A stretch of DNA of 41,187 nucleotides from Bacteroidales bacterium (lineage in GTDB: Bacteria > Bacteroidota > Bacteroidia > Bacteroidales > Muribaculaceae), in assembly GCA_014800385.1 (NCBI GenBank), contig JAAVGE010000025.1:1-41187 (forward strand), given 5' to 3'. Within the stretch, counting starts at the first letter, position 1, and each line of letters begins with the position of its first letter. The notes beneath the pieces were generated by a model that worked only from the letters and a program-made list of their open reading frames with translations, had not been told where the DNA came from and searched no databases. Of this stretch, positions 17,416 through 41,168 are shown one piece after another. The position numbers and the translations under genes were made by a program.

Positions 17416-19494
17416 TTATCTAAGACCTGCTTCATATTCAGCGTCAGAAGCGCAGTCCCACCATACGGGAATTGACCAGAGGTAGGGTTCGTAAGCGTGA
17501 ACGTTAGACGCTTTCAGGTTGTCCTCGTTGAAGTTAAGTTCCTGAGAACCTTGACGCCAGCGACGGATCCAGTAGTTAACATCTGTTGGGTTTGCACCGG
17601 GAGTAACAGAACCACCGGTGAAGAGTTTGGTACGGCCGTAACCGGGGTAAACAACACCGAATGAACCGATGTTACCGGCAGAATAGTTGAAACGACGCAT
17701 GTCAACCCAGTTTTCAAGGCTGAAGCCCATTGCGATGTATTTCTGGAGCATGATATCGCTCATCTTAAGGTCACCTGCAGACTGAGCAACAGCAGCAGAG
17801 TTCAGGTAAGCCTCGATAGCAGCATCATCCATTGGTTGCATGCTGATGTTTTCGTAACCTGCAGCAGCCCATTGTTTGAGTTTAGTCTGCATGCGATCCA
17901 TGTGAGCGCGGATACCGGCTTTGTAAGCCTGGAGAGCACCGTTGGCATCACCTTTACGCATGAGGACCTCTGCTTTGATGAAGCACATTTCGTAGTAAGT
18001 AACCAAGTCGAAGTCAGACTGAGCGTAGGTCTGGAATGCACCTGTACCTGATACAGCACCTGCATTTGCAGCAGCAGCGTCATTTGAGTGGTAGTAAGTG
18101 TCAAGAGCAGGCATACCCCAAGTACCGTTATTGGTGTTCTGAGAACCGGCGTTCAAGTTTACATAAGCAGTATCACCGGCCTGGATGTAGTTGGAAGAGT
18201 TAACATACCATGCACCTGCGGGATAAGCGATAGCAACATATTTAGAATCCTTATAAGAGTATTCGAAATATTCGCGTTCAAGCATACCTGAAATTTTGCC
18301 ATCACCGTCAACAGCAGCAGATGTTGAAGCCTTGTAGTTGTTAGCCTTGAAACCGTTGATGAAAGTAGCACGTTTTGCATCATCAGCGATTTCGTAACTG
18401 ATTTCTTTCTTGGCAGTTGCGAAAGTCTGAACAGCGATAGAAGTTGCGCCACCGGCAACAAGGCGTTCAGCATCACCAAAGAGGTCAACACCTACGGCGC
18501 GACGCCACTGGTAAGATCTAACGCGACCATCTTCACCAAGAGTGATGTTAGTCATTGAAGAGGGAACCAGGCGGTCAACACGGGGGTCTTCTACGCCTGC
18601 GCCACGCATGTTGGTAAGCAGGTCGATGAAGAATTTAGAAGCCCACTGAGTTTTACCGTATGCTGCGGTGTCCCAGTTACCACTTGTCTGAATGGGGTCA
18701 CCGAGAAGGAAGTCGGTTTTGTCACCTTTAACATCAAAACAAGCCTGGTAAGAGTTATCATCGTTGCTCTGGGGAGCGTTAGCAAGAGCGGCGAGGATAG
18801 CCTCGGGATCGTAGTATTCAGAGTTTTTGGTAACACGGAGCAACCAGCGTGCTTTCAGACCGTAGCAAAGTTTGATCCATTTGTTAACGTCACCACCGTT
18901 CCAGATGTCACCTTCTGCCAGAGAAGGAGCATTAGCAGCCTGGGGAGTGTTGAACAGTTCGATAGCATGGTCGATTTTTGCAAGACAGCCTTCCCAAACG
19001 GTTTTACCGTTATCATAGGGAGGAACGGGGTTTGCACCGATAGCATCAGTATAAGGAATTTCACCGTAGAGGTCAGTGAGCATGATGAAGCCCATAGCAT
19101 GCAGAACTTCAGCAGCAGCCATATAGTATGTTGCGCCCTGAGCCTCAGCCTTTTCATAAAGGTAAGGAATGTTGTTTGCAGCACCTACGAAGAAAGTCTG
19201 GTAGGGAGTGGTTGTAAGACCATTAGCGCAGTTCCAGGTAACTGAAGCGGCATTCATGTTGGCATTAGTAGAATAGAAACCGCCGCAAGTTGCGAAAGTA
19301 CGAACGTTAGCACATCCTGCAGGATAAGTGTACTGCTTTTCAATCCAGGGGAGACGGTTCTGGATGGTGATTGATTCAGCAGTAGGCTGATCGGGGTCAA
19401 CGTTAACATCCAACCAGTCGTTGCATGAGGTAAGGCCAAGAGCCATTACGCTGCTTAGCGCGATATATTTAACAAATTTCATGGTTTGAATCAT
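17416..19494 (-). CDS. SusD/RagB-like (SusD-like family 2) lipoprotein
   Basis: 692 aa; lipobox LTSC; CNDWLDVNVDPDQPT; paired with SusC. True start may be the internal Met at 19482 (MKFVKYIALSS). Confidence 0.9.
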   Translation of the reverse strand: MIQTMKFVKYIALSSVMALGLTSCNDWLDVNVDPDQPTAESITIQNRLPWIEKQYTYPAGCANVRTFATCGGFYSTNANMNAASVTWNCANGLTTTPYQTFFVGAANNIPYLYEKAEAQGATYYMAAAEVLHAMGFIMLTDLYGEIPYTDAIGANPVPPYDNGKTVWEGCLAKIDHAIELFNTPQAANAPSLAEGDIWNGGDVNKWIKLCYGLKARWLLRVTKNSEYYDPEAILAALANAPQSNDDNSYQACFDVKGDKTDFLLGDPIQTSGNWDTAAYGKTQWASKFFIDLLTNMRGAGVEDPRVDRLVPSSMTNITLGEDGRVRSYQWRRAVGVDLFGDAERLVAGGATSIAVQTFATAKKEISYEIADDAKRATFINGFKANNYKASTSAAVDGDGKISGMLEREYFEYSYKDSKYVAIAYPAGAWYVNSSNYIQAGDTAYVNLNAGSQNTNNGTWGMPALDTYYHSNDAAAANAGAVSGTGAFQTYAQSDFDLVTYYEMCFIKAEVLMRKGDANGALQAYKAGIRAHMDRMQTKLKQWAAAGYENISMQPMDDAAIEAYLNSAAVAQSAGDLKMSDIMLQKYIAMGFSLENWVDMRRFNYSAGNIGSFGVVYPGYGRTKLFTGGSVTPGANPTDVNYWIRRWRQGSQELNFNEDNLKASNVHAYEPYLWSIPVWWDCASDAEYEAGLR

Positions 19495-19495
19495 T

Positions 19496-22400
19496 TTAGA
19501 AAGTGATGTTTACACCAAAAGTAAAACTTGAGGTAGCAGGTACAGAACAGTAGTCGATACCGGTTGAACCAGAACCACCTGTACCACCGGCGGTAGAAAC
19601 TTCAGGATCCATACCTTTGTAGTTGGTAACGGTCAAGAGGTTGCTGCCGGTAATGTTTGCTGAGAGACCTTTGATAGTTTTTTTGCTCTTCAACAGACGA
19701 GTGAAGTCGTAAGAAAGGCTAACGTAACGGAGTTTCATCCAGTTAACATCAGTCAGGAAGTGGTGAGAGTTAGAAGCGTAGTTGCTCCAGTATTTCTGGA
19801 TCATTGCTTCACCTGAGTAAGTAGTACCACCGATTTCGTATGTTTTACCTGCTTCGTAAGTCTGGGTGAAGGGTTCACCGGTCTTGTAGTCGATACCGTC
19901 AACAGAAACTGACTGACGATCGTTAGCAAGAGTCATGGGGTGCATACCGAGGGTAGTCATGTAGTAAGCAGTACCGTTGTAAACTGCACCACCAAAGCGG
20001 AAGTCGAGGAGGAATGAAAGGTTGAAGCCTTTGTAAGAGAATGAGTTGGTAAGACCGGCCATCAGTTTGGGCTCACGGTTGCCGACAATGTTGTTTTCAG
20101 TGTTTACGCGGTAGAGACCGGTTGCGGGGTCGATCTGATATTTACCGGTTGCTTCGTCAACATAGTATTCGTAACCTGTCAAACCAAGGAAGTAGTTCTG
20201 AGTTGCTGACTCAGCCTTGGGAACAGAAGCAGATTTAACTGTACCGAACTGAGCGTCGGTGGGGTAGAAGAATGACACACCATTGATGAAGTCACCCAGA
20301 CGACCCTTGTTGTAAGAGAGGTTCAGGCTGAGGTCCCAAGAGAACTCTTTGTTCTGAACGGGAATTGCAGTGATAGCAACTTCCATACCGTCGTTGATAA
20401 CAGAACCTGAGTTGATAGAAGCGAAGATGTAACCGTTAGCCTGTGACAGACGGGGAGAAGCAATCTGGTTTTTGGTTTCGCTGTGGTAGTAAGTGTAGTC
20501 CAAACCTAAGCGACCGTTGAAGAATTTCAACTCAGCACCAACTTCCCAAGAATCCTGGATTTCAGGTTTGAGGAAGCGGTTACCTGCACCCCAAGAGTTT
20601 GCGATAGCAACGAAACCGTTGTAGTTATAGGGATCCCAAACAGTGGTGTTAGTTGCATAGGGGCTTGCATCTTTACCTACACGAGCCCAAGATCCGCGAA
20701 CTTTACCGAATGTGAGGATGTCGCTGCCGAGGATTTCGTTATCCTGGAGGAACTGGGTGAACACGATAGAACCGTTCACAGAGGGATAGAAGTAAGAGCG
20801 GTTTTCTTTGGGGAGAGTAGAAGACCAGTCGTTACGTCCTGTTACGCTCAAGAACACAGTGTTTTTCCAGTCACCGCGGATTTCACCGTAAACACCAACG
20901 AGACGTTTGCGTGAGGTGTTTTCGCTGAAGAATTTGGTTTCCTGAGGAATGTTACCAAAACTGATTGTACCTTCGGTGATGAAGTCATAACCGTAGTGAG
21001 TCTGGTTAACACGTTTAGTGTATTCAGTTGTTGTACCGATCAAACCGCCAATGGTGTAGTCACCGATGGTTTTGTTGATGCTGGTCATCAAGTTGGTTGT
21101 TGAGTAAGCATAGCGGTAATCGCTCTTGCTGAGACGACCGTTCTGGTATTTGGGGCTAACAACAGATCCGGGAGCGATGTAACTGTAACCGTCAGTTGTG
21201 TAGTCATCATAACCAACACGAGCAACGATGTTCCACCAGTCGGTGATTTCGTAAGAAAGGTTAAGTGATCCGGTGAAACGTTTGGTTTCGTCGTTGATCT
21301 TATCTTTGTTTACGATCCAGTAGGGGTTTTCTTTGTCATCTTCCAGAGACCAGATACCTTCAAACAGACGATATTTCTGACCATCTTCAGTGAGATAGTG
21401 GCTCATATCTTCAGTGCGGGGCCAACTGTAAAGACCGGTCATTGCACCGCCACCACCACCACCGTAGAGACCGCCTGAAGTAAGGGTCTTGTTGGTTTTG
21501 GCTACTGAATAAGCAACGTTAGCGCCGAGGGTGAATTTCCAGATTTTCTGTTCGCCGTTGAAACGGAAAGTAGTTTTGTCGTAACCGGTTTCGGGAACGA
21601 TACCACCCTGGTTGTAGTTAGATGCAGAAAGGAAGAAAGTTGTGTTCTTGCTACCACCTGAAACGCTTACTGTGTTATCAAAGATAACGCCGGTTTCGAA
21701 GAAGTCGCCGATGTTGTCATAAACTTTCTCGTCAGTGATTTTCTTACCCCAAGACTGATAAGTCTGGTCGTTGTAAACGCCGTTGTTTTCATAGTAACCG
21801 CGTCCGAAAGATGACTGTGCTTCGGGAAGTTTGTTAGCCCAAGAAGCAGTAAGTTTACTTGAAACGTTAACTTTAACAGTTCCTTCAGAACCTTTTTTAG
21901 TGGTGATGATCACAACACCGTCAGCAGCGCGAGAACCGTAAAGAGCGGCAGCGGCTGCACCCTTGAGGACTGACATTGATTCGATATCCTCGGGGTTGAT
22001 ATCCATTACACGGTTAGAGTAAGTGGTGTTAGAACGGGTCATACCGTCAGTACCAGAGTTACCGATAACCTGAGTAGAGTTGTCATAGATGATACCGTCC
22101 ACTACGAACAGAGGTTCGTTGGTACGGCCTTCAGAGGTTGAGTTACCACCACGGAGGGTGATGTTAGCACCGGCACCTGCAGCACCTGAATACTGAGTAA
22201 CGGTCACACCGGGGATTTTACCGGCGAGAGCGTTAACAACGTTCGGGCTCTTGTTTTCAAGGATCTCATCTGATTTCATTTCAGAAACAGAGTAACCGAG
22301 TGCTTTACGGTCTTTCTTAATACCGAGCGCTGTTACAACAACTTCGTCGAGGTTGGTTGCGCTGGGCTGCATGGTAATGTTAAGGGGTTGACCTGTGTAC

Positions 22401-22684
22401 TTTACTTCAACGGGGGTATATCCCACGTAAGAGAGTAATATTGTCTGTCCGGGGTTTGCGGCGATTGAGAACTTACCGTCGATGTCAGTGTTCACACCAC
22501 CTGCTTTGCCTTTGACAATCACAGAAACGCCGACCATAGGCTCACCGGTTTCGTCAACAACGACACCTGAAGCCTTGCCGGACTGTGCAACGGCTGAGAA
22601 ACCGTAGAAGGAAGCACCGTTATATGCAACGGGTGTTCCACATGCGATTGCTAAAGCCGCTAACATTGCAAGTTGCTTTTTCAT
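19496..22684 (-). CDS. SusC/RagA-like TonB-linked outer-membrane protein
   Basis: 1062 aa; GVVVDETGEPMVGVSVIVKGKAGGVNTDIDGKFSI, LDEVVVTALGIKKDRKALGYSV, ESMSVLKGAAAAALYGSRAADGVVIITTKKG. Confidence 0.97.
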   Translation of the reverse strand: MKKQLAMLAALAIACGTPVAYNGASFYGFSAVAQSGKASGVVVDETGEPMVGVSVIVKGKAGGVNTDIDGKFSIAANPGQTILLSYVGYTPVEVKYTGQPLNITMQPSATNLDEVVVTALGIKKDRKALGYSVSEMKSDEILENKSPNVVNALAGKIPGVTVTQYSGAAGAGANITLRGGNSTSEGRTNEPLFVVDGIIYDNSTQVIGNSGTDGMTRSNTTYSNRVMDINPEDIESMSVLKGAAAAALYGSRAADGVVIITTKKGSEGTVKVNVSSKLTASWANKLPEAQSSFGRGYYENNGVYNDQTYQSWGKKITDEKVYDNIGDFFETGVIFDNTVSVSGGSKNTTFFLSASNYNQGGIVPETGYDKTTFRFNGEQKIWKFTLGANVAYSVAKTNKTLTSGGLYGGGGGGAMTGLYSWPRTEDMSHYLTEDGQKYRLFEGIWSLEDDKENPYWIVNKDKINDETKRFTGSLNLSYEITDWWNIVARVGYDDYTTDGYSYIAPGSVVSPKYQNGRLSKSDYRYAYSTTNLMTSINKTIGDYTIGGLIGTTTEYTKRVNQTHYGYDFITEGTISFGNIPQETKFFSENTSRKRLVGVYGEIRGDWKNTVFLSVTGRNDWSSTLPKENRSYFYPSVNGSIVFTQFLQDNEILGSDILTFGKVRGSWARVGKDASPYATNTTVWDPYNYNGFVAIANSWGAGNRFLKPEIQDSWEVGAELKFFNGRLGLDYTYYHSETKNQIASPRLSQANGYIFASINSGSVINDGMEVAITAIPVQNKEFSWDLSLNLSYNKGRLGDFINGVSFFYPTDAQFGTVKSASVPKAESATQNYFLGLTGYEYYVDEATGKYQIDPATGLYRVNTENNIVGNREPKLMAGLTNSFSYKGFNLSFLLDFRFGGAVYNGTAYYMTTLGMHPMTLANDRQSVSVDGIDYKTGEPFTQTYEAGKTYEIGGTTYSGEAMIQKYWSNYASNSHHFLTDVNWMKLRYVSLSYDFTRLLKSKKTIKGLSANITGSNLLTVTNYKGMDPEVSTAGGTGGSGSTGIDYCSVPATSSFTFGVNITF

Positions 22685-22778
22685 ACAATAAACGTGAAGG
22701 TTAATATTTGGTTGTTTTAGAATAGTTTATTCATGGATTTTTACCCGCAGAGAGAGAGTCCACGGATATTTGCAGGGG

Positions 22779-22809
22779 CAAATTTATATATAATTTTGAT
22801 TTATCACAA
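22779..22809 (-). promoter_or_regulatory. Bacteroidetes-type promoter for SusC/SusD operon 1
   Basis: - strand TTG-N20-TAAATTTGC; ~95 bp upstream of the ATG at 22684. Confidence 0.7.
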
Positions 22810-22930
22810 CTTTTAAGCATTTTTTTTCTAAAAAAAAGCAAATTGGGCTTATCAGTCGGTCAAAAATATGTTTAAGAACATGTTTTTGGGTTGTTTTTCA
22901 GTGATTTGGATTAGTTGGAGCGTTAAGAGT

Positions 22931-23065
22931 TTTAAATCTTATATGACTTACAAAATTTATAAGAGTTATATGATTTATATGATTTATATGACTTATAAGA
23001 CTTATAAGACGTATAAGACTTATAAGATTTATAAAATTTATAAGATTTATAGAACTTATTTGACT
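22931..23065 (-). repeat. 9-bp tandem repeat array C, about 15 degenerate units
   Basis: Units such as tatatgact|tataagact|tataagacg|tataagact|tataagatt; this is the reverse complement of the TATAARTCT unit in arrays A and B. Confidence 0.9.
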
Positions 23066-23085
23066 CTTTATCCGCGAGCCCGCGC

Positions 23086-23952
23086 TTACAGAATCTTTAT
23101 CCCCCCGACTTCGGTAGAGGCTTCGCCCAACGGACCGCAGTTCTGGAGAACGGATGATGTTATCCTTATATAATTAAATGTGTTGATGGTGACGGAGCGA
23201 CCTTCCTCATCCACGGCATTGGCCGGATCAAGGATGGAGCGGTCGTCGGAGTTGGGATAGCAATCGGCATAGCCGGTCAGGGGGGTTAGGGTCCACTGGA
23301 GTGTGGCGGTGCTATAGGTGCCGTTGTCGGGGAGACGCAGTGCGGTGAATGTCATGGTGGCATCGCTCACCCAGTCGGGGAAATAGTTCTGGGGGTGGAA
23401 CTCGGGGATACGTGAGAGGTATCCGGAGTCTCCGCCGGTGGTTCTCCATTGTATATATTCTGCATCTGTGGCATCCGCGGCGGGACGACTGTAGGTCACG
23501 GTTGTCAGTTTGGCGCGACTGAAATTTTCACCGCGGAGAGTGTACCATGTTTTTCCATCGGTAGAGATAGCGACCATTCCGGGTTCACCCTGTGTTGGAA
23601 TGGCGTTGCCGAGCACCTGGAATCTCCCTTTTATGGGGGTATCGGTTTTCACTGTTACCGACCCTCCGAACGAGCCGAGAGTCACGACACGGGCATCTTC
23701 GTTGCCGTTGAAAACAGCCTCAACCTTTGCCACTACATCCTGATAGGATTCTCCTGCACTGCATTTGGGAAGTTCATTGACAAACTGTCCGGGTGCGGGA
23801 GAATAGTCGATGACCTTTACTTTGACACGCGTGAGTTCGGGTTTCATCGGGGGGTCGATTGTCGGTTCATCGTTGTCCGAGTCGGTGTTGTCACATGCGG
23901 TCAATGTCATTAATATTAATGAGGATGCGAATATGGTTTTGAGGTGTTTCAT
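23086..23952 (-). CDS. Surface lipoprotein of a Bacteroidales 'cell surface protein' type
   Basis: 288 aa; lipobox LTAC; APGQFVNELPKCSAGESYQDVVAKVEAVF, LGSFGGSVTV, FQVLGNAIPTQGEPGMVAIS, VLQNCGPLGEASTEVGGIKIL. Confidence 0.75.
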   Translation of the reverse strand: MKHLKTIFASSLILMTLTACDNTDSDNDEPTIDPPMKPELTRVKVKVIDYSPAPGQFVNELPKCSAGESYQDVVAKVEAVFNGNEDARVVTLGSFGGSVTVKTDTPIKGRFQVLGNAIPTQGEPGMVAISTDGKTWYTLRGENFSRAKLTTVTYSRPAADATDAEYIQWRTTGGDSGYLSRIPEFHPQNYFPDWVSDATMTFTALRLPDNGTYSTATLQWTLTPLTGYADCYPNSDDRSILDPANAVDEEGRSVTINTFNYIRITSSVLQNCGPLGEASTEVGGIKIL

Positions 23953-23984
23953 TGTTATAAGTAGTTGTTACGTGGGGCAAAGGT

Positions 23985-24028
23985 ACAAAAAAATCGGAGG
24001 AGAGTCCTATTCTCCTCCGATTTTTTTT
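23985..24028 (-). terminator. Strong (possibly bidirectional) terminator between SusD 2 and the surface lipoprotein gene
   Basis: aatcggaggaga-gtcctat-tctcctccgatt perfect stem, flanked by A and T runs. Confidence 0.85.
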
Positions 24029-24043
24029 ATGACAGCGGGATGA

Positions 24044-25678
24044 TTATTCCCAAACTTTGTTGGCGGGTTCTTCAGCCGAAACCAAGGGGTTGTTATCGGT
24101 TTCCTGAATGGGGTAAGAGTAGGTCCAGTTGTATTTATCTTGGGGACCGTAGTTACCGCCTGAAGTACCAGTTCCGCAGAATTCGGGTGCGAAGTTACCA
24201 CCATCTTCCCAAGTCAGGCGGGTGTGGTAGTTGCCCCAGCGTTTCTGGTCATACCAAGAGAAACCTTCACCCCAGAGGTCGAAACGACGGTAGAGTTTAA
24301 CTTCTTCGAGCAGGGCATCGCCGGTTTTGGTACATTTGTAGTTGCTCTGGTAGGGAGCGACAGCCTCTTCGAGGAGTTTCTGCACTTCGGTGTCCTTGCC
24401 TCCCATGTGGCATGCAGCCTCAGCCTGGGTGTAGTACATTTCGGCAGCGCGGAAAAGGCTGATGCAACCGTCGGAGTGACCGGATGCGGCGCGGAACTTG
24501 AAACTCATGTAGGCGTAGATTACAGTAGAGGTACCGTTGAGATAAGCGCTGTAATCAGCACGTGCACGCACCTGGAGGGCGCCTTTGCTTACTGCCGAGC
24601 CGGAGTCAGTGGTTTTATATGAACCTTTCTCTGATTCCAGAGGAACGAGATAACACCAGCGGCGGGCGTCGTCTGCGGGAATCTGGTCGATGAGCGTCTT
24701 GGAGATTGAGGGGACATATTTGTAACCTGCCGAGGTGTCGGTGTTGGAGCCGTTGTAAGAGAAGAAACCGTAGTGGTGAACGGTCTGACCTGCATCGTTA
24801 TATGCTTCCCAGATCCATTCGCTTGTGGGTGCGTTGAAACCGGCTTTATAATCTTCGGCCGACATCAGTTTGTAGCCTTTGCGTGCAAGTTGAGCCTGCT
24901 GATAGGCTGTTGCCCAGTCCTCGCGGTTCAGGGCGTAGCGGGCGTAAACGGCATGGGCCACATCCTCATTGGGTGACCACAGGTCCCCTTTGGGGCGGTT
25001 CAGACCGGAACTCTGATAAAGGGCGATAGCGTCGTCGAGATCCTGGTAGATCTGTGCATATACAGCCTTGAGCGATGACGCCTCCATAGGATCGTTGTCG
25101 GGTGTGAGGCGAAGCACAACGCCACGGCTCAGACCATTGGCGTCGGACCAGCGGCGTGAGTAGTATTTCACGAGCGCACCATAGAAGTAGGCGCGGAAAG
25201 TGAGAGCCTGTGCTTTGATGAAGTCGCGTTCCGACTGAGGACCTTCAGCACCATCGATGTTCGCAAGGATGTTGTTGGCGTTAGAGATCTGCTTGTACAG
25301 ATAGTGCCAGGGATACTTGGTGTAGGTGTTCTTGCCGTTGCTGATGTTGTTGCAGTTGCAAACGTTCTGCCAGCCAGTGAGATTGGATTTCTGGTAATCC
25401 ACGCCGGTGTATTCGTTGAACCATGTCATGAGCGTGCCTTCACCGTTCATACCCTGTGTACCGGATGATTCGGTTGTACCCACGCCATACTGCTGTATCA
25501 TAGCGAGGCAGATGCCGTTGACGGCCATGGCAGCGTTTTCGGTGGTGGCGAAGATTGTTTCAGAACCGGGTTTATTCTGAGGTGCTGTGTCGAGATAGTC
25601 AGATGAGCATGCGGTTACTGAGGTGAGCATTGCCACACCTGCCACAGCGGTCATAAATTTTGATATCTGGATTTTCAT
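24044..25678 (-). CDS. SusD/RagB-like nutrient-binding lipoprotein
   Basis: 544 aa; lipobox VTAC, SSDYLDTAPQNKPGSETIFATTENAAMAVNGI, C-terminal YPIQETDNNPLV. Confidence 0.95.
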   Translation of the reverse strand: MKIQISKFMTAVAGVAMLTSVTACSSDYLDTAPQNKPGSETIFATTENAAMAVNGICLAMIQQYGVGTTESSGTQGMNGEGTLMTWFNEYTGVDYQKSNLTGWQNVCNCNNISNGKNTYTKYPWHYLYKQISNANNILANIDGAEGPQSERDFIKAQALTFRAYFYGALVKYYSRRWSDANGLSRGVVLRLTPDNDPMEASSLKAVYAQIYQDLDDAIALYQSSGLNRPKGDLWSPNEDVAHAVYARYALNREDWATAYQQAQLARKGYKLMSAEDYKAGFNAPTSEWIWEAYNDAGQTVHHYGFFSYNGSNTDTSAGYKYVPSISKTLIDQIPADDARRWCYLVPLESEKGSYKTTDSGSAVSKGALQVRARADYSAYLNGTSTVIYAYMSFKFRAASGHSDGCISLFRAAEMYYTQAEAACHMGGKDTEVQKLLEEAVAPYQSNYKCTKTGDALLEEVKLYRRFDLWGEGFSWYDQKRWGNYHTRLTWEDGGNFAPEFCGTGTSGGNYGPQDKYNWTYSYPIQETDNNPLVSAEEPANKVWE

Positions 25679-25689
25679 TGTGATCTGGA

Positions 25690-28600
25690 TTAAAGATTAA
25701 CTGTGAGACCGAAAGTGAACACTCGGGCAGCAGCAACATAGTTGTACTGACCACCGTCGATTGACATTGAGGGGTCGAGACCTTTGCGTTTTGCGTGAGT
25801 GAAGAGGTTTTCACCTGAGAAGGAAACCTGAACGCCCTGAAGGTCAATCTTGTTAACCCATGCCTTGGGAAGGGAGTAACTGAGGTTGAGATTCTTGAAG
25901 CAGAAGTAGTTACGGCTGATGAGCCAGCGGTCGGAAGCGGCGTTGTTGTCGCTTGATGTGCTCTGCTCGATGATGGGGTTGACAGCGTAGGTCAGACGGT
26001 TAGCCGAGTTTTCAGTCATACCTTCGGGAACACCGGTCCATGAATTGAGAATGTCAGTATGATAGTTTGAAGCATTTGATGACACGCTCATGAGGCTTGC
26101 ATAGGTTGAGTCGTAGATTTTACCACCCAGAGAGTAGGTGAACATTGCAGAGAGGTTTACGTTTTTCCAACGGAAGTTGCCGGTGAAAGAGCCATACACG
26201 GTGGGGAGGGCACCGCCACGGAATGCGCGCTGCGCATAGTTGGTTTTGTCGGTGTATGCCTTACCGTTGATGAAGAAGAGGTTTTCAGCGGGGATTTCGG
26301 TTGCTTCACTGTTAGTGTTGTCTGACACCTTCACACCGTCAACAAAGTAGTAGTGGTCGGTGATGTCTGCGTCGTACATTGATTTACCGGTCATCTGGTC
26401 AACACCTGCATAGTGATAGGTGTACCATTCGTAGCGGCTGCGACCTTCGACAATACACTGGCTGCCGGTTACGATCTGCTTGTTGTTGTCGGGCAGTTTG
26501 ATAACCTTGTTTTTGAGGGTGGTGAGGTTGGCTGCGATGTTTACAGTCCAGTCTTTGTTGGTGAACACGTCAACATCGGTGTTGATTTCAATACCTGAGT
26601 TACGGATGCTACCCATGTTCTGGTTCAGGATTGACTGAGCCTGTTTGAACTCGGTTGAACCTGCGGAGTTGGGCGCATACACCTCGAAGAGGAGGTCTTT
26701 GGTGGTACGGCTGTAGTATTCCAGTTCCACGTTCCAGCGGTTGAACAGACGTGCTTCCAGACCGATGCCCCATGATTCGCTGGTTTCCCATGAAAGGTTA
26801 CCGTTGTAGTTCTGGTCGATCCAGTATGCGGCAGAACCGGCATTGGTACCTGACGAACTTGAGCCATAGAGAGCCATATAACCGTAGTAAGAGTCGAGGT
26901 CATCATTACCTACCTGACCCCAGCCACCGCGGAGTTTACCTGAGTTCAACCATGTGAAGTCCTTCATGAATTCTTCGTTTGAGAACACCCAGTTTGCGCC
27001 GACAGAGCCGAATGTGCCCCAACGGTGGTTACGGTCGAAGCGTGAAGAACCGTCGCGACGCACAGAACCTTCAATGTTGTAGCGGTCATCGAAGTTGTAC
27101 TGCACGCGACCGAGGTATGATTCAGTGCGGAGATAGTTGCGGTAACCTGCGTTAGAAGAAATGGTTGCGTAGTTGGAGATTGCTGGGATATTGGCGAATT
27201 TCTCGTTTTCTTTGCGCAGGTATGTGTAGTCGTAGTGGTAGGAGTAGTTCTCATGACCGAGCAGGATGTTCACATTGTGCTTGCGGTTGAAGGTGTACAC
27301 CCAGCGGAGTTGCTGCTGGAAGGTCCAGTTTTTGTAGTTGTAGACGGTCTTTGAGATAGAACCTGTTCCTTTTGAGTCACCGATGAGTTTTGATTTCATT
27401 TCGGTGTTTTCGCTGTTGCGGGTGTTAAGGTTACCCTTGATAGAGGCGGTGATGCCGTAGGGGAGCATGATGTCGGCATAAGCGATGCCGTTCATGGTGT
27501 TACGGATGGTGTTGTTTGAGTTCAGCGAAGTTTCATAGATGATGTGGCGGTCGGCGTTCTGGTTGCGTGTGGTCAGAGGTTCGCCGTCGACAGTGTTGTT
27601 TGCGATATCGTAGATGCGGTTGCCGCTTTCATCAAGGAGGTATGCACCGGTTGCAGGGTCATGCAGATGCACGGGGTAGATGGGCGACATGTAACGGCAG
27701 AAGTAGAAGGGGTTGATGTAACTGCTGTTGTCATCGCCCACACCTTTGGAATTCTGCAGTTTCTGGTGAGTGGCATTGAGGTTCAAGCCTGTCTTGAGCC
27801 ATTTCACAGGCTTGATGTTGACAGACGCACGACCTGAGAAACGGTTGAAACCTGAGTTTTCGAGGTAGCCGTTTTCATCGAGGTAGTTGACTGAGAAGTA
27901 GTAGTCGGAACGTTCTGTCGCACCGCTTCCAGAGAATACATATTCAGCGCGGTAGCCGTTTTTGATAGCCTGGTCATACCAGTCGAGGTCTTCGCCGTAA
28001 GTGCCTTTGATCATTGCATCGTCGCGGAGGACACCGTTAACGAAAAGTTCGGTATCTTTCTGATTGTAGATGTTGGTGAAGAGACGTGAACTGATGAGGT
28101 TCTCGCTGGCATACTGGCGTGCGGCGGTGATATTTTCAGCCGAGCGGTCAAGACCTTTTGTCATGAGGTAGTTGTTGACCATGTTGGTGTACTCAACATT
28201 CATGAACTGACGGTCGTTTACACGGTCGTATTCCGAGATACCACGCTGGTAAACACCCTGGTTGGTCTTGAATGTGAATGAGATACGGTCTTGTTTAGCC
28301 TTTTTGGTGGTGATAAGGATTACACCGTTACCCGCGCGGCTACCGTAGAGAGCCACAGAGGAGGCATCCTTCAGCACTGACATTGATTCGATATCATCGG
28401 GGCTGAGGTCGGAGATGTTACCACCGAAAGGAACGCCATCGATAACATAAAGGGGCTCGGTTCCGTTGTTAACAGAGCCGATACCGCGGATACGGATTGT
28501 GGGTGATTCACCGGGGGCACCATACGCGCCAGATACGGTGATACCGGAGGTGGTACCTTCCAGAGCGGATGCTACGGATGAAACGGGACGCATTTCAATT

Positions 28601-28977
28601 TCCGCGCTGCTCACCTGCGAGATGGCACCTGTCACGGATGATTTTTTCTGTGTGCCGTAAGCCACAACCACAACTTCATCGAGGTTGGAGGCCTGCGATT
28701 CCAGACGGATTGTCATATTGTCGGCGATGGCTACCTCCTGGGGTACCATACCGATGTAGGTGACTGAGAGAGTTTTGGCATTGTCAGGGACATTGAGCGA
28801 GAAGTTACCGTCAATGTCGGTTGACGCGCCCACTTGTGTGCCTTTTACAAAAACTGATGCTCCGACAATCGGTTCGTCGGTAGCCGCTTCAATCACAGTA
28901 CCTTTTACGGTACGTGCGTATGCTGAGCCTGCAAACAGACCTATGCATACCAAAAAGAATAGAATTCTTTGCTTCAT
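25690..28977 (-). CDS. SusC/RagA-like TonB-linked outer-membrane protein
   Basis: 1095 aa; GTVIEAATDEPIVGASVFVKGTQVGASTDIDGNFSL, LDEVVVVAYGTQKKSSVTGAIS, ESMSVLKDASSVALYGSRAGNGVILITTKK. Confidence 0.97.
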   Translation of the reverse strand: MKQRILFFLVCIGLFAGSAYARTVKGTVIEAATDEPIVGASVFVKGTQVGASTDIDGNFSLNVPDNAKTLSVTYIGMVPQEVAIADNMTIRLESQASNLDEVVVVAYGTQKKSSVTGAISQVSSAEIEMRPVSSVASALEGTTSGITVSGAYGAPGESPTIRIRGIGSVNNGTEPLYVIDGVPFGGNISDLSPDDIESMSVLKDASSVALYGSRAGNGVILITTKKAKQDRISFTFKTNQGVYQRGISEYDRVNDRQFMNVEYTNMVNNYLMTKGLDRSAENITAARQYASENLISSRLFTNIYNQKDTELFVNGVLRDDAMIKGTYGEDLDWYDQAIKNGYRAEYVFSGSGATERSDYYFSVNYLDENGYLENSGFNRFSGRASVNIKPVKWLKTGLNLNATHQKLQNSKGVGDDNSSYINPFYFCRYMSPIYPVHLHDPATGAYLLDESGNRIYDIANNTVDGEPLTTRNQNADRHIIYETSLNSNNTIRNTMNGIAYADIMLPYGITASIKGNLNTRNSENTEMKSKLIGDSKGTGSISKTVYNYKNWTFQQQLRWVYTFNRKHNVNILLGHENYSYHYDYTYLRKENEKFANIPAISNYATISSNAGYRNYLRTESYLGRVQYNFDDRYNIEGSVRRDGSSRFDRNHRWGTFGSVGANWVFSNEEFMKDFTWLNSGKLRGGWGQVGNDDLDSYYGYMALYGSSSSGTNAGSAAYWIDQNYNGNLSWETSESWGIGLEARLFNRWNVELEYYSRTTKDLLFEVYAPNSAGSTEFKQAQSILNQNMGSIRNSGIEINTDVDVFTNKDWTVNIAANLTTLKNKVIKLPDNNKQIVTGSQCIVEGRSRYEWYTYHYAGVDQMTGKSMYDADITDHYYFVDGVKVSDNTNSEATEIPAENLFFINGKAYTDKTNYAQRAFRGGALPTVYGSFTGNFRWKNVNLSAMFTYSLGGKIYDSTYASLMSVSSNASNYHTDILNSWTGVPEGMTENSANRLTYAVNPIIEQSTSSDNNAASDRWLISRNYFCFKNLNLSYSLPKAWVNKIDLQGVQVSFSGENLFTHAKRKGLDPSMSIDGGQYNYVAAARVFTFGLTVNL

Positions 28978-36799: not shown

Positions 36800-39025
36800 T
36801 TAAAGCACACGCGCCACCTGCTTTACGCCGTTGACTTCCGCCACTTTGGCACAAAGGTCACGCACCACATCATTGTCGGCCACCTTAATCCACAGGTCGC
36901 AGTGGAACACCTCTTTCTCAGCCTCGATGTTCATTTTGCGTATGTCAATCGCAAGATGTGATGAAATCATCTGGGTCAGTTCCTGAAGTATTCCGAAACG
37001 GTCTATCCCCTCGATATGTATCTGAGCAGGGAACGACTGCTTCTGCACATCCCACTTCACCTGCAGCAGACGGGGTCCGAAACTGGCTTTCAGAGCCTGT
37101 GCGCGGGGACAGTCCATGGAGTGTACCTCAACCTCATTATTATCATTGATGAAGCCCAGCACATTGTCGCCGGGGATGGGGTTGCAACATGGAGCGAACA
37201 CGAAGTTGGCACCATTCTCGTCGCTATGCAGGGTGTAGGTTTGCTTACGGTTGATATTATCCTTGCGCTCGGTTTCGGCATGTTCGTCAGCAGCCTTCTT
37301 TGAGCGGCGGAAAATGAGACGAGACAGGAGCGACTCATTCTGTTTTTTCATCATCCGCACCACGTAGTCGCCCAAAGTGACCTCACCGCTCCCTATACGC
37401 ATGTAAAGTTCGTCGCGGTTACTTACCTTGCAGATGCCGAGCAGTTTGGTGAAACTCTCGTTTGTCTCCTTGATGTCGTTGTTGCGGAGGAACTGTTCGT
37501 AAATCTCTTTTCCCGTTTCTATGGCAGGACGCTGAGCCTGTTTCAAAGCCTGACGCAGCCGTGTCTTTGCTTTTGCCGAAGCGAGGAACGACATCCATTC
37601 TTCCTTGGGCTTCTGCGATTTAGAGGTCAGCACCTCCACCTGGTCACCACTCTTGAGTTTCTGACTCAGCGGCACCAGTTTATGATTCACCTTGCCGGCG
37701 ATGCAATGGAAGCCGAGTTGAGTGTGGAGGTTAAATGCCACGTCAAGCACGGTTGAACCGGCAGGAAGCGTTATCAGTTCGCCGCTGGGGGTGAATACAA
37801 CAATCTCGGTTGCGAACAGATTCAGTTTAACCGTGTCGAGGAAGTCGATGGCATTGGGGTCGGGGTTATCCAGAATCTCCTTGATGGTCTGCAGCCATGC
37901 GTTGAGTTCACTCTCCTCGTCACCTTCGCCGATTTTATATTTCCAGTGGGCGGCAAAACCTTTTTCGGCTATCTCGTCCATGCGGCGTGAACGTATCTGT
38001 ATCTCTACCCAGTTTCCGTCGGGCCCCATAACCGTCAGATGCAGAGCCTGATAGCCATTGGCCTTGGGTATTGAGAGCCAGTCGCGCGTACGCTCGGGAT
38101 GGAGTCGGTAGAGTTCGGTGATGGCGGTGTAGATGCTCCAGCATATAGCCTTTTCCTTAGCGGGGTCGTCACACTCGAAGATGATTCGCATGGCATAAAG
38201 GTCGTAAACCTCCTCGAAGGGGATATGTTTTGACTCCATCTTGTTCCAGATGGAATAGACCGACTTCATGCGTGCCTTCGCATCGAATTGCAATCCGAGC
38301 GATTTGAGTTTCTCAATGATGGGTGTTGCAAAGTCGGTGTAAACCTCATTGCGTCGCGCCTCGGTGGCCTTAATCTTGTCGCTTATCTCCTGATATGCAG
38401 CAGGATGCTCATATTTGAAACTGAGGTCTTCAAGTTCGGTTTTAATGGCGAAGAGCCCCAGGCGGTGGGCCAGCGGGGCGTAGATGTAGAGTGTTTCACC
38501 GGCAATTTTATACTGCTTGGCGGGTGCCATAGAGCCCAGGGTGCGCATGTTGTGGAGGCGGTCAGCCATCTTGATGAGCACCACACGAATATCCTCGCTC
38601 ATGGTCAGAAGCAGTTTGCGGAAATTCTCGGCCTGCGCCGATGCTTTCGCTCCGAAGATACCTCCGGATATTTTGGTCAGACCCGACACAAGTTGGGCTA
38701 TTTTCTTTCCGAAGTGCTGTTCAATATCCTCAACGGTAAATTCCGTATCCTCAACCACATCATGGAGCAGCGCGGCACAGATGGAGGTTGATCCCAACCC
38801 TATCTCCTGACTGGCGATTTTCGCCACGGCAATGGGGTGCAGTATATAAGGCTCACCAGAGCGACGGCGTATTCCTTTGTGGGCTTCCTTGGCAAATTCA
38901 AAAGCCCTTACGATAATCTCCACCTTCTTGCGGTGGTTACTTGCGAGGTATCCGTTTAGAAGGTCGTTGAACGCCTCCTGGATCATCGCATCCTCTTCCT
39001 GTGGGGTTTTGTTGTATTCAGCCAT
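36800..39025 (-). CDS. rel: RelA/SpoT-family bifunctional (p)ppGpp synthetase/hydrolase
   Basis: 741 aa; HD hydrolase motif LLHDVVEDTEFT, ADRLHNMRTLG; synthetase PKANGYQALHLTVMGPDGNWVEIQIRSRRMDEIAEKGFAAHWKYK; TGS and ACT regions. Confidence 0.96.
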   Translation of the reverse strand: MAEYNKTPQEEDAMIQEAFNDLLNGYLASNHRKKVEIIVRAFEFAKEAHKGIRRRSGEPYILHPIAVAKIASQEIGLGSTSICAALLHDVVEDTEFTVEDIEQHFGKKIAQLVSGLTKISGGIFGAKASAQAENFRKLLLTMSEDIRVVLIKMADRLHNMRTLGSMAPAKQYKIAGETLYIYAPLAHRLGLFAIKTELEDLSFKYEHPAAYQEISDKIKATEARRNEVYTDFATPIIEKLKSLGLQFDAKARMKSVYSIWNKMESKHIPFEEVYDLYAMRIIFECDDPAKEKAICWSIYTAITELYRLHPERTRDWLSIPKANGYQALHLTVMGPDGNWVEIQIRSRRMDEIAEKGFAAHWKYKIGEGDEESELNAWLQTIKEILDNPDPNAIDFLDTVKLNLFATEIVVFTPSGELITLPAGSTVLDVAFNLHTQLGFHCIAGKVNHKLVPLSQKLKSGDQVEVLTSKSQKPKEEWMSFLASAKAKTRLRQALKQAQRPAIETGKEIYEQFLRNNDIKETNESFTKLLGICKVSNRDELYMRIGSGEVTLGDYVVRMMKKQNESLLSRLIFRRSKKAADEHAETERKDNINRKQTYTLHSDENGANFVFAPCCNPIPGDNVLGFINDNNEVEVHSMDCPRAQALKASFGPRLLQVKWDVQKQSFPAQIHIEGIDRFGILQELTQMISSHLAIDIRKMNIEAEKEVFHCDLWIKVADNDVVRDLCAKVAEVNGVKQVARVL

Positions 39026-39245: not shown

Positions 39246-39276
39246 TTGCATATTAAAATTAAATATTATACCTTTG
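39246..39276 (+). promoter_or_regulatory. Bacteroidetes-type promoter of candidate ncRNA
   Basis: TTG (39246-39248)-N20-TACCTTTG (39269-39276); no + strand CDS follows. Confidence 0.7.
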
Positions 39277-39281
39277 TCCCA

Positions 39282-39511
39282 TCCTTAGGTACGAACATAC
39301 TAAGTGATACGGAAATCCTCTCTGAGTTGATATTTCTTTTTGATTTCCGACTACTATTCTTTTCATGAGAAATAGTTTTTTTCACGGCATCCATGGTAAG
39401 TGATTTATATAGGATGCAGGTTATTAGGATTGGTTTAGTAAGGTTTCATACACAAACCGGTGTATGAAGAAAATGGAAAAGGGTGCATGCGTATCCTTTT
39501 TTATTTTTTTT
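39282..39511 (+). ncRNA. Candidate structured ncRNA, ~230 nt
   Basis: Promoter at 39246-39276; hairpins cggaaatc/gatttccg (39310-39317 with 39342-39349), gcatcc/ggatgc (39387-39392 with 39412-39417), ttcatacac/gtgtatgaa (39445-39468); terminator at the 3' end. Confidence 0.6.
39477..39511 (+). terminator. Intrinsic terminator of candidate ncRNA
   Basis: aaaagggtgc-atgc-gtatcctttt (10-bp stem including G-U pairs) followed by ttattttttt. Confidence 0.7.
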
Positions 39512-39544
39512 ACGATATCACCAATGCAGAGATAACAAAACAGT

Positions 39545-39735
39545 GGGCTGTGTCAAAAATTGAAGCCTGTATTTTATATGTGTTGTACGTTCATGGACAG
39601 TGATGTATATTCGGCGGATGCTCCATGGAGCATCCCTACACTCTTGACAATCAATACATTAACCCCGTAGGGCTGCTCCATGGAGCAGCCGCATCATCCT
39701 TTATACGGCGAGGCTGCGCCTATTATGACACAGCC
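39545..39735 (+). repeat. ~190 bp MITE-like intergenic repeat, copy 5
   Basis: ggctgtgtca ... tgacacagcc is a perfect 10-bp terminal inverted repeat; both internal 20-bp palindromes are present. Confidence 0.92.
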
Positions 39736-39764
39736 TCCTGAGATTATATTGTGTTATTTCAGTT

Positions 39765-40538
39765 CTATTTGAATCGCCAGGTTATGGTTCCCGTCTGGTT
39801 CTTGTCGGAATTTGCCAAGGGGGAGAATTTTGTTTCCAGTGTGGCCTTGATTGTTTTGTTACGCATGGCGTTGTCACCTGCTGCCGCGCCTTCGCCTCCG
39901 GCATAATCGGCACGGATTACCTTCCCTTCAGGATTAACGGTCACGCTTACGCGTATGGTCCCCGACTTACGGCTCGAGTTAGCACCCCACCGCAGGATGG
40001 TACGACCGGCAAGGTCATGACCCTGCTCGCCGGTAGGTTGACCGGATACATTGTCGCCCTCACCTTTGCCGCTTATACCTTCACCTTTTCCGGTACCGGA
40101 AAATTTCATCTGCGACGCGATTTTATTACGGGTATTCTGCTCCTGACGTATCCGCTCCTGCTCAGCCAGCTCCTCCTTTGTAGGACCTGTTTTCTCAGGC
40201 TTTTCCTTAGGGGTAACTTTCATGGGCGACTCCTGCTGCGAAGCCACTTCTGGGGGAGTCACTCCTGCCGGGCCACTGTTGTCCATGTCATGTCCGTCCT
40301 GAAGTGTCTCACCCGGTTGCGGGTCGGCCAGCGGTGCGTCGGAGGGGGTGACATCGCGGAGCATATCGCCCAGATTGATGTAATCGCTCACCAGCAGAAT
40401 CTCGGTGCTGTCAACAGGCACACGACTATCCTCCGGATCCTCGGGAGGCCAGCGCAGGTAGGTGGTTGTGAGCACAAGCAGCAACAGCAGGTGCACCCCA
40501 ACGGCTATGACGGCGGATATGACTTTATCACGTTTCAT
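39765..40538 (-). CDS. tonB: TonB-family energy transducer
   Basis: 257 aa; N-terminal TM, Pro/Lys/Glu-rich linker, C-terminal GTIRVSVTVNPEGKVIRADYAGGE...TKFSPLANSDKNQTGTITWRFK. Confidence 0.85.
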   Translation of the reverse strand: MKRDKVISAVIAVGVHLLLLLVLTTTYLRWPPEDPEDSRVPVDSTEILLVSDYINLGDMLRDVTPSDAPLADPQPGETLQDGHDMDNSGPAGVTPPEVASQQESPMKVTPKEKPEKTGPTKEELAEQERIRQEQNTRNKIASQMKFSGTGKGEGISGKGEGDNVSGQPTGEQGHDLAGRTILRWGANSSRKSGTIRVSVTVNPEGKVIRADYAGGEGAAAGDNAMRNKTIKATLETKFSPLANSDKNQTGTITWRFK

Positions 40539-40963
40539 TGCGGACGTGCTGATTTGGGGGCAGGCTTGGTGGCAAGAACCATCTTGAGGTTACCTTCAGC
40601 ACCAATGTTCAGTATCTCCACTATCTTTCCGTAGGGCACCTCTTCATCGGCGTAGAGTGCAATGAACCCTTCCGGATCGTTTTCATGCGCCAGACGCAGG
40701 AAGGTGACAAGCGTTTCGGGTGTCATCGGCTGAGGTTCCTCACCCTGATAAGAGGCGAAGAGGTTGCTGTTCATGTCAAGATAGACGGTCGTACCGGGTT
40801 TGATTGCCCGTTGCTCCGAACTCTCGGGGAGATTGACCTCCAGAGCCGTAGGCATGACGAAGGTTGACGTAACCATGAAGAATATCAGCAACAGGAAAAT
40901 GACGTCGGTCATTGACGCCATGGAGAATGTCGCCTCCATTCGGTGTTGTGACTTGATTGCCAT
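40535..40963 (-). CDS. exbD: ExbD/TolR-family biopolymer transporter
   Basis: 142 aa; SMASMTDVIFLLLIFFMVTSTFVMPTALEVNLPES; 4-bp overlap with tonB. Confidence 0.93.
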   Translation of the reverse strand: MAIKSQHRMEATFSMASMTDVIFLLLIFFMVTSTFVMPTALEVNLPESSEQRAIKPGTTVYLDMNSNLFASYQGEEPQPMTPETLVTFLRLAHENDPEGFIALYADEEVPYGKIVEILNIGAEGNLKMVLATKPAPKSARPQ

Positions 40964-40980
40964 GATGCTTTATATTATTG

Positions 40981-41168
40981 TTAAGTAGATGTTGAAAATT
41001 AGTTTATACTTAGTTCGTTTCTATTTTCGAGTGATATTTTGTTTTTGAAGAAGGAGTGTAGTGAACTACACGACTGATGAAAAAACGAAATAGTGCCGAA
41101 AAGAGAAATGAAATAAGTAGAAACAACATCTGCTTGATGATATAAAATAATTTTCAACTTCTACTTAT
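40981..41168. repeat. ~185 bp imperfect inverted repeat (long hairpin) between a probable exbB end and exbD
   Basis: Outer arms taagtagatgttgaaaatta / taattttcaacttctactta (19/20), inner arms complementary over much of ~60 bp, centre gtgtag-tgaa-ctacac; one arm carries an extra ~23 nt. Confidence 0.8.

Follow-up and report, generated by a model that had tools for sequence, protein, structure and literature searches.

Between rel and the tonB/exbD-like genes, all on the minus strand, the window (the whole stretch of DNA analyzed, 41,187 nt) holds a promoter that is followed on the plus strand by a series of predicted hairpins and a terminator-like hairpin. The first-pass annotation had described this arrangement as a unit at 39246-39511, and every feature it listed is present there. 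A conserved structured RNA gene very likely exists at 39279-39508 and, judged from sequence, very probably represents a previously unlisted, lineage-specific small-RNA gene of about 230 nt in an uncultured, Muribaculaceae-like gut bacterium of the Bacteroidales. The features below refer in part to two homologues, one in a genome of the same genus (G003) and one in an uncultured 'Porphyromonadaceae' MAG (L046, CAMWNP010000008.1); two-sided changes are changes at both partners of a pair.

36800-39025, minus strand: rel (named by reading of the translation)
39246-39276, plus strand: promoter TTG - N20 - TACCTTTG of the Bacteroidetes primary sigma type (from sequence; spacing kept in the homologues)
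39279-39508, plus strand: candidate small RNA gene, ~230 nt (promoter and U-tract taken to mark its start and end; based on homologues, fold z of -4.25 and covariation)
39281-39308, plus strand: hairpin 1, at the 5' end (5/8 pairs with two-sided changes, 87.5% of cells paired; weak in G003)
39310-39349, plus strand: hairpin 2 (4/8 pairs with two-sided changes)
39353-39376, plus strand: hairpin 3 (83% of cells paired; found in the window and L046 and, in shorter form, in G003)
39387-39417, plus strand: hairpin 4, with conserved tip GUAA-(n)UGA(n)-UUAU (lower stem, 5/6 pairs with two-sided changes)
39423-39440, plus strand: invariant stretch AUUAGGAUUGGUUUAGUA, mostly unpaired, the proposed seed (18/18 identical in three genomes)
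39445-39468, plus strand: hairpin 5, 9-bp stem with loop AAACCG (5/9 pairs with two-sided changes)
39471-39508, plus strand: terminator-like hairpin and U-tract, AAAUGGAAAAGGGUGC-AUGC-GUAUCCUUUUUUAUUU (15/16 pairs invariant in three genomes)
39765-40963, minus strand: tonB/exbD-like genes (named by reading of the translations)

The unit has a promoter of its own and shows no coding capacity. TTG at 39246-39248 and TACCTTTG at 39269-39276 form an exact TTG-N20-TAccTTTG, the consensus TTTG / TAnnTTTG being taken from published work (PMC7366714). Taken alone this match is weak, since TTG-N19-21-TAnnTTTG occurs six times in the 41 kb window when both strands are counted. Its conservation, unlike the bare match, is not weak, as the promoter is kept as TAATTTTG in L046 and as TAAATTTG in G003 with an identical N20, so that the TTG-N20-TAnnTTTG promoter expected of an intergenic sRNA is found in 3/3 members. 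No ORF of note lies behind the promoter, as had been remarked on first reading, and none is common to the three members; a tRNA search of the unit found no tRNA. That the unit is instead a short mRNA encoding a small protein, or the leader of a downstream gene, is highly improbable: individual members do contain short ORFs (12-26 codons), but no ORF is common to all three, the invariant stretch shows no change at any codon position, and the next gene, tonB, is encoded on the opposite strand with a terminator in between.

The predicted transcript (39280-39508) is considerably more stable than expected by chance. Its minimum free energy is -63.4 kcal/mol compared to -46.1 +/- 4.1 kcal/mol in shuffled sequences (z = -4.25), and 0/200 shuffles were equally stable. 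The hairpins that had been proposed at 39310-39349, 39354-39375, 39387-39417 and 39445-39468 were reproduced, the second as 39353-39376, as was the terminator, and the hairpin at 39281-39308 comes in addition to them. At the 3' end, the terminator arms (39471-39486 and 39491-39506) lead into a U-tract and are nearly identical in the three members, as expected for the intrinsic terminator of an sRNA. This terminator has no entry in the output of a simple terminator scanner, presumably because its stem continues into the U-tract. Hairpins of this A-tract/GC/U-tract type turned up repeatedly among the matches throughout Bacteroidales.

Homologues of the unit are few, and their E-values place it beyond chance. 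A blastn search of 99 genomes found one related stretch in G003 (E = 6.7e-16), and an exact-pattern scan of GTDB contigs returned the G003 copy and L046 as a third member. A covariance model built from the window sequence alone matched both L046 (E = 4e-26) and the G003 copy (E = 2.4e-12). The blastn, pattern and covariance model searches gave the following homologues.

L046 1472-1711, minus strand: homologue
L002 1500-1710, minus strand: homologue

Beyond G003, blastn against the 99 genomes, phages and plasmids yielded only one promoter match. Covariance models R1 and R3, run on up to 397 genomes of the family and 394 of the order, recovered only the window's genome and G003, and the other matches inspected were terminator-like hairpins only. 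The RNA is thus known from three species, namely 2/8 genus genomes examined plus L046, with one copy per genome, and was seen in none of about 395 further genomes of the family and about 390 further ones of the order. Some of the genomes are incomplete, that of the window being 76% complete, so not every single absence is proven. Muribaculaceae is a dominant family of the mammalian gut. To our knowledge, small RNAs have hardly been studied in it, and what is known of Bacteroidales sRNAs comes mostly from one Bacteroides species. The present unit offers a clean candidate with a defined start, end and structure and a probable seed.

Comparison of the three members reveals conserved sequence embedded in freely changing stems. 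The two most conserved elements are the 18-nt stretch and the tip GUAAnUGAnUUAU of hairpin 4; ATTAGGATTGGTTTAGTA is likewise identical in the window, L046 and G003. Identity in a gapped alignment is 81% in the 3' half of the RNA versus 52% in the flank from the RNA to tonB, which is not meaningfully alignable and not conserved. The flank towards rel scores 79%, partly because its first ~80 bases, the rel leader, are conserved and partly because gapped alignment inflates identity.

The absence of stem conservation in relatives had been named as one part of what would overturn the proposal, and the local hairpins are in fact kept. In a three-sequence alignment (A10), 94.6% of cells are paired compared to 79.5% in shuffles, and 21/57 pairs show two-sided changes compared to 7.4 +/- 2.1 in shuffles. 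When partners were slid by one column, pairs with two-sided changes dropped to 0-1. The 21/57 pairs indicate a conserved structure with compensatory changes, as expected of an sRNA. The alignment comprises three sequences and was built to fit a single member's structure, and it therefore favors the model structure. RNAalifold on a plain MAFFT alignment, in which stems are misaligned, proposed different consensus pairs, and the covariation result is therefore alignment-dependent. The strongest single case is hairpin 4, where invariant sequence anchors both sides of a changing lower stem: all cells of the lower stem are paired and the four tip pairs, in the inner stem GUAA/UUAU at 39396-39408, are invariant. 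Maintained constraint and compensatory changes also speak against the unit being what remains of a mobile element or phage, degenerate or not expressed. Such a remnant could account for the narrow distribution and for two different genomic places among close relatives, but the RNA has no match in phage or plasmid collections, is present once per genome and has no adjoining mobile-element genes in G003, and we consider this origin very unlikely.

The RNA is a unit of its own and occurs independently of rel. The first-pass annotation had considered a link with rel and the stringent response and had suggested looking for conservation upstream of rel in relatives. This conservation holds for L046, where the gene order exbD-tonB-RNA-rel is that of the window and the Rel proteins are 97% identical. 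The G003 copy is found at an unrelated locus, behind a gene for a metallo-beta-lactamase-fold protein and an araC-type regulator gene, and rel in that genome has a different neighbor, by reading of its sequence a sodium/amino-acid symporter-like gene. Because the RNA is apart from rel in G003, the proposed link is not borne out. In two further genomes of the genus (G002 and G007; L012, L014), a different small gene with its own TAnnTTTG-like promoter is divergent from rel, which makes the position beside rel a variable one within the genus.

Rfam scans gave no family match, in agreement with the earlier statement that no family could be assigned. The region had no match at E up to 5, including the 6S families RF00013, RF01685 and RF01693, and the homologues had none at E up to 1. 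The scans returned nothing beyond chance matches to miRNA families, one of which stems from a palindrome at 39614-39692. A search for 6S-Flavo gave no match in the control genomes either and is hence uninformative. A suggested 6S family that does occur is encoded elsewhere: RF01693 (Bacteroidales-1), described in Rfam as 'Bacteroidales-1 6S-Bacteroidales RNA suggested', is located on contig C36 of the same genome and is also present in 7/7 other genomes of the genus, its standing as a true 6S RNA resting on this Rfam remark. Bacteroidales-1 resembles the present RNA in being a stand-alone Bacteroidales RNA of ~180-200 nt and differs from it in sequence and fold, and the two are found at different places of the same genome.

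A 6S-like RNA that binds RNA polymerase, as first suggested, would have a similar length, and the window sequence allows the 5' region to be drawn in long-range pairing with the conserved stretch. The long rod with a central bubble is, however, not backed by covariation: it has zero pairs with two-sided changes, parts of it are disrupted or cannot be aligned in the homologues, and it is the local hairpins that covary instead. With no Rfam match to any 6S family, a separate RF01693 RNA and a rod devoid of covariation, the 6S reading is unsupported and appears barely credible. A pairing of the 5' end with the seed, also considered, fits two members, fails in the third and shows no covariation. 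What stands of the earlier proposal is the stand-alone, unannotated ncRNA of ~230 nt, through its conservation and covariation, and the 6S and stringent-response idea is corrected by the occurrence of the RNA independently of rel.

By analogy with known systems, we consider the RNA to be probably a free-standing, trans-acting base-pairing sRNA that uses the conserved stretch as its seed. RNA polymerase with the primary Bacteroidetes sigma factor would start near 39277-39280 and stop at the terminator near 39508, giving a transcript of ~230 nt predicted to consist of five local hairpins and the terminator hairpin. The functional site would be AUUAGGAUUGGUUUAGUA, the invariant and largely unpaired stretch that separates hairpins 4 and 5. 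Most likely it pairs with the leader of at least one mRNA transcribed from another locus and would thereby change translation. Sequence comparison shows where the unit begins and ends, its structure, the conserved stretch and its independence from rel; transcription, this pairing mechanism and the targets are inferred.

A seed for mRNA pairing is the best reading of the invariant unpaired stretch because of the analogy with GibS and FopS of Bacteroides thetaiotaomicron, which act via unpaired seeds at translation starts (PMC7366714, PMC11697453). GibS is an intergenic sRNA of 145 nt (PMC7366714), and the FopS family comprises RbpB-bound RNAs of 65-70 nt with 14 copies per genome in Bacteroidaceae (PMC11697453); the predicted ~230 nt lies outside both lengths. 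The likeness to GibS is one of kind, drawn by description and not by sequence homology: both are intergenic and AT-rich, have their own promoter and terminator and possess a conserved unpaired stretch as (proposed) seed. In contrast to GibS, the RNA of the window is highly structured, carries its proposed seed in the 3' half instead of at the 5' end and has a sigma-ABfr-type promoter instead of PM2. It shares with FopS a canonical sigma-ABfr promoter and a possible pairing with leaders of glycan-use loci, and differs in its single copy, its length and its distribution in three Muribaculaceae-like species, its target being predicted only.

The main rival to mRNA pairing is a protein-binding role, in which the stretch and the hairpin-4 tip would bind, for example, an RbpB-like RRM protein and the RNA would titrate or guide that protein. 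The (nearly) invariant GUAAnUGAnUUAU tip and 18-nt stretch among freely varying stems are compatible with such a role, as are the lack of target enrichment and the binding of single-stranded stretches of sRNAs by Bacteroides RbpB (PMC11697453). Each RNA, however, has a single copy of the stretch, unlike sponges with their repeated sites. We regard protein binding as a possible though rather unlikely explanation.

The best-scoring predicted target of the proposed base-pairing sRNA lies in a probable glycan-use locus on the same contig. When 277 translation starts were sampled from the window's genome, the seed formed its best predicted duplex (-17.9 kcal/mol, site -48 to -32) with a GH16 lipoprotein leader; this gene is the first of a GH16-susC-susD locus lying about 10 kb from the RNA. 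The third-best duplex (-16.7 kcal/mol) is with the DUF6377 gene just before it. Shuffled seeds, however, yield comparable numbers of strong duplexes in these 277 starts, and no such site is found at the GH16 gene of G003, located about 17 kb away from the RNA in that genome. In G003, 11/12 matches to the seed are present in the leaders of a few other genes for secreted proteins. As a predicted target, the GH16-susC-susD leader would thus be a lead and not evidence, being neither significant nor conserved. That the RNA represents a new, highly structured sRNA family of Muribaculaceae-like bacteria controlling the GH16-susCD locus and DUF6377, 8-10 kb away on the same contig, via the 18-nt seed is unlikely. 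The order of genes at L049 8943-16972 (G000:C25), 8-17 kb beyond the RNA, is DUF6377, a BACON-GH16 lipoprotein gene, susC and susD, probably a beta-glucan utilization locus. Within the window itself, the translations at 17416-28977 read as two pairs of susC/susD-like genes (1062/692 aa and 1095/544 aa), indicating further glycan-use loci.

Two repeat structures are located near the unit. A long imperfect AT-rich inverted repeat at 41002-41125, upstream of the exbD-like gene, accounts for chance miRNA matches in the Rfam scan. Between the RNA and tonB, a block at 39541-39740 is bounded by imperfect inverted repeats (GGCTGTGTCA / TGACACAGCC) and contains the palindrome CTCCATGGAGCA. The block does not align at the corresponding place in L046 and, because a similar stretch is present in L075 (contig C33), looks like a dispersed MITE-like repeat.
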